This document shows positions 57,811 to 61,605 of a DNA stretch of 64,000 nt, in pieces (positions within the stretch are counted from its first letter, which is position 1; each line of letters starts with the position of its first letter). The stretch covers positions 1 to 64,000 of the forward strand of contig CALEDJ010000018.1 in NCBI GenBank assembly GCA_937951485.1. Direction: 5' to 3'. A program made the position numbers and the translations under genes. Under the pieces are notes generated by a model. That model ran no database searches. It was not told the origin of the DNA and was given only the letters and a program-made list of their open reading frames with translations. The DNA is from an uncultured bacterium. GTDB taxonomy: Bacteria; Hydrogenedentota; Hydrogenedentia; Hydrogenedentales; CAILVY01.

Positions 57811-57839
57811 TTGGCAAATTGCGGCGTTCGTGTTATAAT
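57811..57839 (+). promoter_or_regulatory. Near-consensus sigma70 promoter of structured RNA
   Basis: TTGGCA (57811-57816), exactly 17 nt, TATAAT (57834-57839), with an extended -10 (TGTTATAAT). It is the best promoter match noticed in the window. Predicted start about 57846. Confidence 0.8.
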
Positions 57840-57845
57840 TGGGGC

Positions 57846-58250
57846 GTGAGTTGAGGCAAGACCGCGGCGGTGGCCACGAAGAAAAACCACCGGGGTGGGG
57901 CCCGGCATGGATGGATGGCGCCGTCGGGCCGGTCGCTCAACCCGAGAGGCGAGGCTGTCGTTCGCGCGCGAACGTTGGTGTGTGGCCGCGCGTGAAAATG
58001 ACGACGGCTCGCACGGTATAGAGCGGGCGACGCCAACCGTCAGGCGCATGTCCCATGATGGGACGACAGTGGCCATGTGGAGCGCCCAGACAATGCAGCG
58101 TCGTGTCACGGCTGGGCGACCCGCTCAGAGACGCGCGGAAGTTGCGTAGCGAGAGGTTTGACGAGGCCGTGGACAGATTCTTCCGGGGCCGCGTGGGCGG
58201 CACGGCGATGGCCCGCAAAATCTTCCCCACGCAACTTCCGCGATTTTTTT
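57846..58250 (+). ncRNA. Probable structured non-coding RNA (~405 nt)
   Basis: From the promoter to the terminator no frame looks coding, but stems are dense. GTTGAG (57850)/CTCAAC (57936) close a domain. CGGTGG (57868)/CCACCG (57887) and GGCCCGGC (57899)/GTCGGGCC (57923) follow. Then come the palindrome CGTTCGCGCGCGAACG (57959), GTTGGTGT (57974)/ACGCCAAC (58030), GTCCC/GGGAC (58050-58064), and CGCCCAG (58083)/CTGGGCG (58112). A 14-bp stem lies at the 3' end. It lacks the hallmark motifs of RNase P RNA, tmRNA, SRP RNA and 6S RNA. It is antisense to nothing: its end meets the GH10 stop. Confidence 0.65.
58134..58250 (+). terminator. Long-stem terminator of structured RNA
   Basis: CGCGGAAGTTGCGT (58134-58147) pairs perfectly over 14 bp with ACGCAACTTCCGCG (58229-58242), followed by ATTTTTTT. 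The stem encloses about 80 nt with its own GCCGTG/CACGGC helix, unusually large for a terminator. It may be both a structural domain and the stop signal. Confidence 0.7.
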
Positions 58251-61115: not shown

Positions 61116-61605
61116 CAGTCTTGTCCAAAACAGGTTATAGAGGATGGTGAGAGACCATGCCCAGAACCCTTGGAAAATCCTGTTGAATAAAAATGATGTG
61201 GGGGGACTTATCCTATACGCAAACCTCTCCGTGGGAATTTCTGAGGCATCATTGGCCCGTGTACCAAGGTGTCTTGTTTTTGTTTCCCCTCACCCCACCC
61301 CTCTCCCGGAGGGAGAGGGGGTACATGGCGAAACCGGAGGCATGCTGTCGCTCCCTCTCCCGGAGGGAGAGGGGGTACATGGGGAAACCGGAGGCATGCT
61401 GTCGCTCCCTCTCCCGGAGGGAGAGGGGGTACATGGCGAAACCGGAGGCATGCTGTCGCTCCCTCTCCCGGAGGAAGAGGGGGTACATGGCGAAACCGGA
61501 GGCATGCTGTCGCTCCCTCTCCCGGTGGGAGAGGGGTGGGGTGAGGGGAAAGATTAATATGACAAAAGACTTTTCTCAGAAGTCAGAATATTTTGGACAC
61601 CACTG
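61116..61605 (+). mobile_element. MITE-like element, copy 2 (490 bp)
   Basis: The left end CAGTCTTGTCCAAAACA and inverted right end CAGTGGTGTCCAAAATA match at 14 of 17. It is flanked by GTACTCACA (61107-61115) and GTGCTCACA (61606-61614), a 9-bp target duplication with one change; both copies encode Val-Leu-Thr. The left 165 bp closely matches copy 1 at 24040. Inside, 25-bp perfect inverted arms (TTTCCCCTCACCCC..., 61286-61310 and 61528-61552) bracket a 54-bp tandem array. No transposase. Confidence 0.85.
61301..61536 (+). repeat. 54-bp tandem array inside MITE copy 2
   Basis: Four units (61301-61354, 61355-61408, 61409-61462, 61463-61516) plus a partial one to 61536. Each unit is CTCTCCCGGAGGGAGAGGGG followed by GTACATGGCGAAACCGGAGG-type sequence. 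Near-identical units imply recent amplification. Because 54 is a multiple of 3, several frames stay open across it. Confidence 0.9.

Follow-up and report, generated by a model that had tools for sequence, protein, structure and literature searches.

A predicted modular non-coding RNA with three-way-junction modules in Candidatus Hydrogenedentota

Results

The RNA locus and its predicted transcript

In the window, by which we mean the whole stretch of 64,000 nucleotides that was analysed, a promoter, a predicted transcript with several helical domains and a probable terminator lie on the forward strand between positions 57811 and 58250. The next gene encodes a GH10 glycoside hydrolase and is convergent to the RNA. 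The features are as follows.

57811..57839, + strand: promoter, with -35 TTGGCA, a 17-nt spacer ending in TGT and -10 TATAAT (extended -10)
57846..58250, + strand: predicted transcript of ~405 nt, placed from promoter and terminator, with the start put 7 nt after the -10 element
57850..57941, + strand: 5' domain D1, with closing stem GUUGAG/CUCAAC; rapidly evolving and weakly supported
57950..58012, + strand: linker hairpin, GCGAGGCUGUCGU with ACGACGGCUCGC, as read directly from the sequence
58021..58126, + strand: module M1, a diverged upstream copy with closing stem GAGCGGG/CCCGCUC, a hairpin at 58050-58064 and P4 at 58071-58086
58134..58242, + strand: module M2, the conserved 3' module with an outer 14-bp stem, an inner stem and a three-way junction that carries two hairpins
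58243..58250, + strand: U-tract, which with the M2 closing stem forms the probable terminator

The promoter (TTGGCA-17-TATAAT, its -10 element preceded by TG) matches the consensus at 11 of 12 positions, in agreement with the original prediction, which had described it as near-perfect. Promoter-like sites are expected by chance at 0.8 per 3.5 kb, and the site in the window alone is not significant; it gains significance because the extended -10 promoter is conserved across the homologous loci described below, being found in the 480 nt that precede the module in 29 of the 35 loci as against 121 of 5362 control stretches (2.3%). Moreover, the two loci found last (in genomes G062 and G064), which were recovered with a covariance model (R3) that does not contain the promoter, show one where it would be expected, at the same distance. 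The promoter in the window also outscores those that this genome has upstream of its RNase P RNA, tmRNA, 6S RNA, SRP RNA and a tRNA, which would fit a high abundance of the RNA. Upstream of the tmRNA gene (G000:C68, L108), the promoter (TTGCAA-17-TGG-CATAAT) is similar in style to those of many homologues of the RNA in the window.

At the other end, the final stem is formed by CGCGGAAGTTGCGT (58134-58147) with ACGCAACTTCCGCG (58229-58242) in 14 perfect pairs, directly followed on its 3' side by ATTTTTTT (58243-58250) with seven T's, just as had been described beforehand. With 81 nt enclosed, this stem closes an entire domain and is not a short terminator hairpin, which is the reason why it is missing from a simple terminator scan. 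A T-rich tract follows the module in most homologous loci, and the closing stem of M2 together with the U-tract is a probable terminator. At the level of sequence, the family has a conserved promoter and a conserved probable terminator of its own.

Coding potential and known RNA families

No conserved reading frame was found among the homologues, and the earlier view that the locus encodes no plausible protein holds. From one homologue to another, the longest open stretches change in both sequence and frame, and in relatives ATGTGGAGC of P4 reads as ATG-TGA; a protein-coding reading was rejected. The RNA had also been described as about 405 nt dense in perfect stems. A non-coding stretch of ~400 nt was borne out. 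Folded as a whole, the RNA surpasses shuffled sequences by a modest margin only (z = -2.33), and the strong evidence for structure comes from covariation. Promoter alone and fold energy alone are weak evidence, and the case rests on the comparison with homologues.

The original prediction had called for a covariance-model search of Rfam, a homology search in related genomes and a test of covariation among the homologues. In the first of these, none of the families of Rfam 15, including OLE, GOLLD and ROOL, matched the RNA of the window at the gathering threshold, and at E values up to 10 there were only BTH_s19 (on the wrong strand, 16.3 bits against a cut-off of 153) and mir-2818, nothing credible. 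The hallmark motifs of RNase P RNA, tmRNA, 6S RNA and SRP RNA had been described as absent; in agreement with this, none of the four models matches here, and the genome has each of the four RNAs at another place: RNase P RNA (RF00010) at G000:C16:143922-144295 with 292.8 bits, tmRNA (RF00023) at G000:C68:74171-74528 with 162.6 bits, 6S RNA (RF00013) at G000:C32:74874-75058 with 52.5 bits, and SRP RNA (RF00169) on G000:C53 with 58.7 bits.

Homologues within the phylum

The first search with the whole RNA, against 100 relatives, gave exact matches of 25 nt and 21 nt in another genome of the same family, and with the motif GCGGAAGTTGCGTAGCGAGAG a set of loci was then found in Candidatus Hydrogenedentota. 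A covariance model built from 14 loci (R1) matched 33 of 68 genomes of this phylum, and a second one built from 30 loci (R2) matched the same number, with no homologue in 318 other prokaryote genomes. A third model (R3), for which only six short forms were used, all from one family other than that of the window RNA, recovers the latter at E = 7e-4 plus most of the long forms, and adds G062 and G064. The homology search thus places the RNA in 35 of 68 Hydrogenedentota genomes and 10 of 11 families, with one locus per genome in all 35 carriers. Since these searches score the best candidates per genome only, the 33 of 68 genomes that gave no match may lack the RNA or may carry a diverged copy. 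As far as seen, the RNA family is restricted to Hydrogenedentota.

Several matches were set aside. The R3 match in G057 (E = 0.19) has neither promoter nor closing stem; a match of G062 to a gapped pattern looks like chance, the real locus of this genome being on another contig; and matches of the covariance models on the antisense strand mirror the nearly palindromic stem. In addition, blastn gave no phage or plasmid match and viral contigs contained no exact match to the module motif, and a mobile-element reading was rejected on these grounds.

Structure and covariation of the module

The conserved core of the family is the 3' three-way-junction module of ~107 nt, whose closing stem doubles as the probable terminator. 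The module consists of this long closing stem, an inner stem and two hairpins (P3 and P4) at the three-way junction. The closing stem has a conserved AG bulge (GCGU-AG-CGA facing UCG-ACGC), P3 is GUCC..GGAC with an A-rich loop, and P4 is GGGC..GCCC.

In a plain MAFFT alignment of 33 modules, made without fitting to the structure, two-sided changes occur at 21 of 31 pairs, and none of 500 shuffles reached the observed covariation values, a count that serves as a guide rather than a probability because the shuffles ignore relatedness. In the same alignment, paired cells amount to 88.2% against ~40% when the partners are slid, the former value leaning in favour of the structure because the structure string was written from the fold of the same RNA family. 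Two-sided changes, such as a pair that is U-A in 17 and C-G in 13 of the modules, are harder to explain by this bias than the paired percentage, and the model-fitted alignment agrees with the plain one. The covariation that the original prediction had asked for among homologues is therefore present. The conserved positions are mostly paired or junction positions. Furthermore, in contrast to the other helices, P3 has UCC/GGA pairs that show hardly any variation, which suggests that these pairs are recognised as sequence.

Anatomy of the long and short forms

M2 matches R1 with 69.1 bits, and the diverged M1 matches R2 with 21 bits (58023-58124). The predicted fold of one or two three-way-junction modules is demonstrated by covariation for M2 and supported for M1. 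Upstream module copies are also present in five other genomes (G009, G016, G026, G034 and G037). In the window genome the P3 of M2 is degenerate and M1 has the canonical P3 and P4 sequences; the degenerate P3/P4 part of M2 spans 58155-58228, as if the two copies had swapped roles.

The module is duplicated in the long forms. In family f5 a single module stands alone, starting ~12 nt after the -10 element, and in family f7 the module lies behind a short hairpin. The short form of ~115 nt, found in one family, is the minimal natural version. Both the linker hairpin and the 5' domain change fast among relatives, and a closing stem like that of D1 (GAGUUGAAGC/GACUUC..CUC) is present in G001 and G002.

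Gene neighbourhood

The genes downstream of the RNA differ in identity and strand among the homologues. In seven genomes (loci L090, L089, L092, L093, L095, L103 and L084) a long protein that by eye resembles FG-GAP-repeat proteins ends 250-550 nt before the module. A small protein with an N-terminus of the type YVGE..P.EFM is encoded directly downstream on the same strand at L094, L092, L095 and L101 (G002, G016, G030 and G007, respectively), that is, in four genomes of three families. The recurrence of these two neighbours indicates that the locus was inherited vertically in parts of the phylum. As neighbours differ in general and the downstream gene in the window runs the opposite way, the RNA probably acts in trans. 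Elsewhere in the window, a 54-bp unit is repeated in tandem at 61299-61536 (4.4 copies, 97% alike), between a glycosyltransferase gene and a HemN-like gene; the array is open in several frames.

Discussion

With no match in Rfam, covarying homologues, and a promoter and T-tract that recur among them, the locus is almost certainly the gene of an independently transcribed structured non-coding RNA, and the original prediction of a new RNA of this kind is well supported by the comparison of sequences. As to its function, we consider there to be an even chance that the modules bind one conserved protein. RNA polymerase would start at the strong extended -10 promoter and would be halted by the stem that closes the last module, together with its U-tract. 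The RNA would then fold into one or two three-way-junction modules behind a variable 5' region and would act in trans, each module being a docking site for a conserved putative protein, which might recognise the A-rich loop and the near-invariant UCC/GGA pairs of the P3 hairpin as well as the conserved AG bulge of the closing stem. The RNA could scaffold the docked protein or titrate it. With P3 as the docking site, the RNA of the window would have just one such site, in M1, because the P3 of M2 is degenerate. Moreover, tertiary contacts within the molecule would also explain an invariant P3, without any protein, and the weak conservation of the 5' domain counts against the docking explanation.

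A doubtful but reasonable alternative is that of a base-pairing small RNA, whose exposed module loops (the A-rich loop of P3 and the loop of P4) would pair with mRNAs and alter their translation or stability. Such an RNA would likewise have its own promoter, a U-tract at its end, a single copy per genome and variable neighbours; however, most conserved positions here are paired or in the junction, P4 and its loop are entirely different in families f5 and f7, and there is no long unstructured conserved seed. The conserved GGA of P3 brings to mind the CsrB/RsmZ sponges, which are independent transcripts with repeated hairpin modules as well and titrate CsrA via repeated GGA motifs. CAGGA does recur in the P3 hairpin (38 observed, 11 expected), but ANGGA, the core of the site, is at chance level in 31 RNAs of the family (47 observed, 47.8 expected) and the GGA of P3 is base-paired, so that a sponge of this kind is very improbable. 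We give just as little credence to a cis-acting leader or riboswitch, in which the terminator would control the downstream gene. The closing stem with its U-tract could serve as an expression platform, yet such a function is excluded in the window by the convergent GH10 gene, and it fits poorly with the changing identity and strand of the downstream genes among the homologues.

It is also unlikely that the RNA assembles with itself, the self-complementary C-A-Y-G-U-G of the P4 loop joining M1 to M2, or one molecule to another, by kissing contacts, in a larger complex like those of OLE and GOLLD. In many long forms (58071-58086 in the window, and homologues), the 6 nt of CAYGUG or of a wobble equivalent are self-complementary, and the plan resembles that of GOLLD, with a conserved 3' region and a variable 5' region; GOLLD, ROOL and OLE are large ornate RNAs that form homo-oligomers (PMC12286853). 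However, the motif is missing in most short forms and in family f7 and is broken in G003 (CAAGUG), the count of the pattern includes some matches outside the P4 loop, and a conserved 6-mer is self-complementary by chance ~5% of the time.

Compared with known systems, the RNA shares with 6S RNA a single-copy gene, a strong promoter and paired ends, but its module has no large central bubble, and the 6S RNA of the genome lies elsewhere. Bacterial Y RNAs offer a further parallel, with paired 5' and 3' ends and a variable insert. A Y RNA reading was rejected since the partner protein is missing, Ro60/TROVE being found in 0 of 68 Hydrogenedentota genomes (the positive control was found in Deinobacterium), and there is no Rfam match. 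To our knowledge, there are few phylum-deep structured RNAs that are single-copy and several hundred nucleotides long, and these have often proved central to the cell. It is tempting, though rather speculative, to assume that the RNA belongs to a phylum-specific core RNA-protein particle, in which an abundant single-copy RNA with a duplicated docking module and a putative partner protein would have an importance like that of 6S or SRP RNA, and would be present in nearly all members, diverged copies having been missed. The family can be seen as a landmark RNA for Hydrogenedentota, and as covariance models, a minimal form of ~115 nt and versions with one and two modules are available, searches for a partner and structural work can start now.

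GOLLD, ROOL and OLE resemble the RNA in being multi-domain and hundreds of nucleotides long, and GOLLD also in its conserved 3' and variable 5' parts; the present family differs from them in that it has no Rfam match, was not found in phages and is smaller; in one family its length is only ~115 nt. The openly licensed literature searched contained no lineage-specific RNA of Hydrogenedentota. The closest in kind are Acido-Lenti-1, Acido-1 and Bacillaceae-1, structured lineage-specific non-coding RNAs of one or two phyla that are not cis-regulatory and whose function was unknown when they were described (Weinberg et al. 2010, PMC2864571). The RNA of the window is likewise lineage-restricted, structured and not cis-regulatory, but it is unrelated to them in sequence and structure, with no Rfam match, and unlike them it is modular, with one or two three-way junctions, the last module doubling as the probable terminator. 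Thus, lineage-specific structured RNAs acting in trans are already known as a kind (PMC2864571), and what is new, as far as these analyses show, is this family with its modular plan and its range across the phylum.
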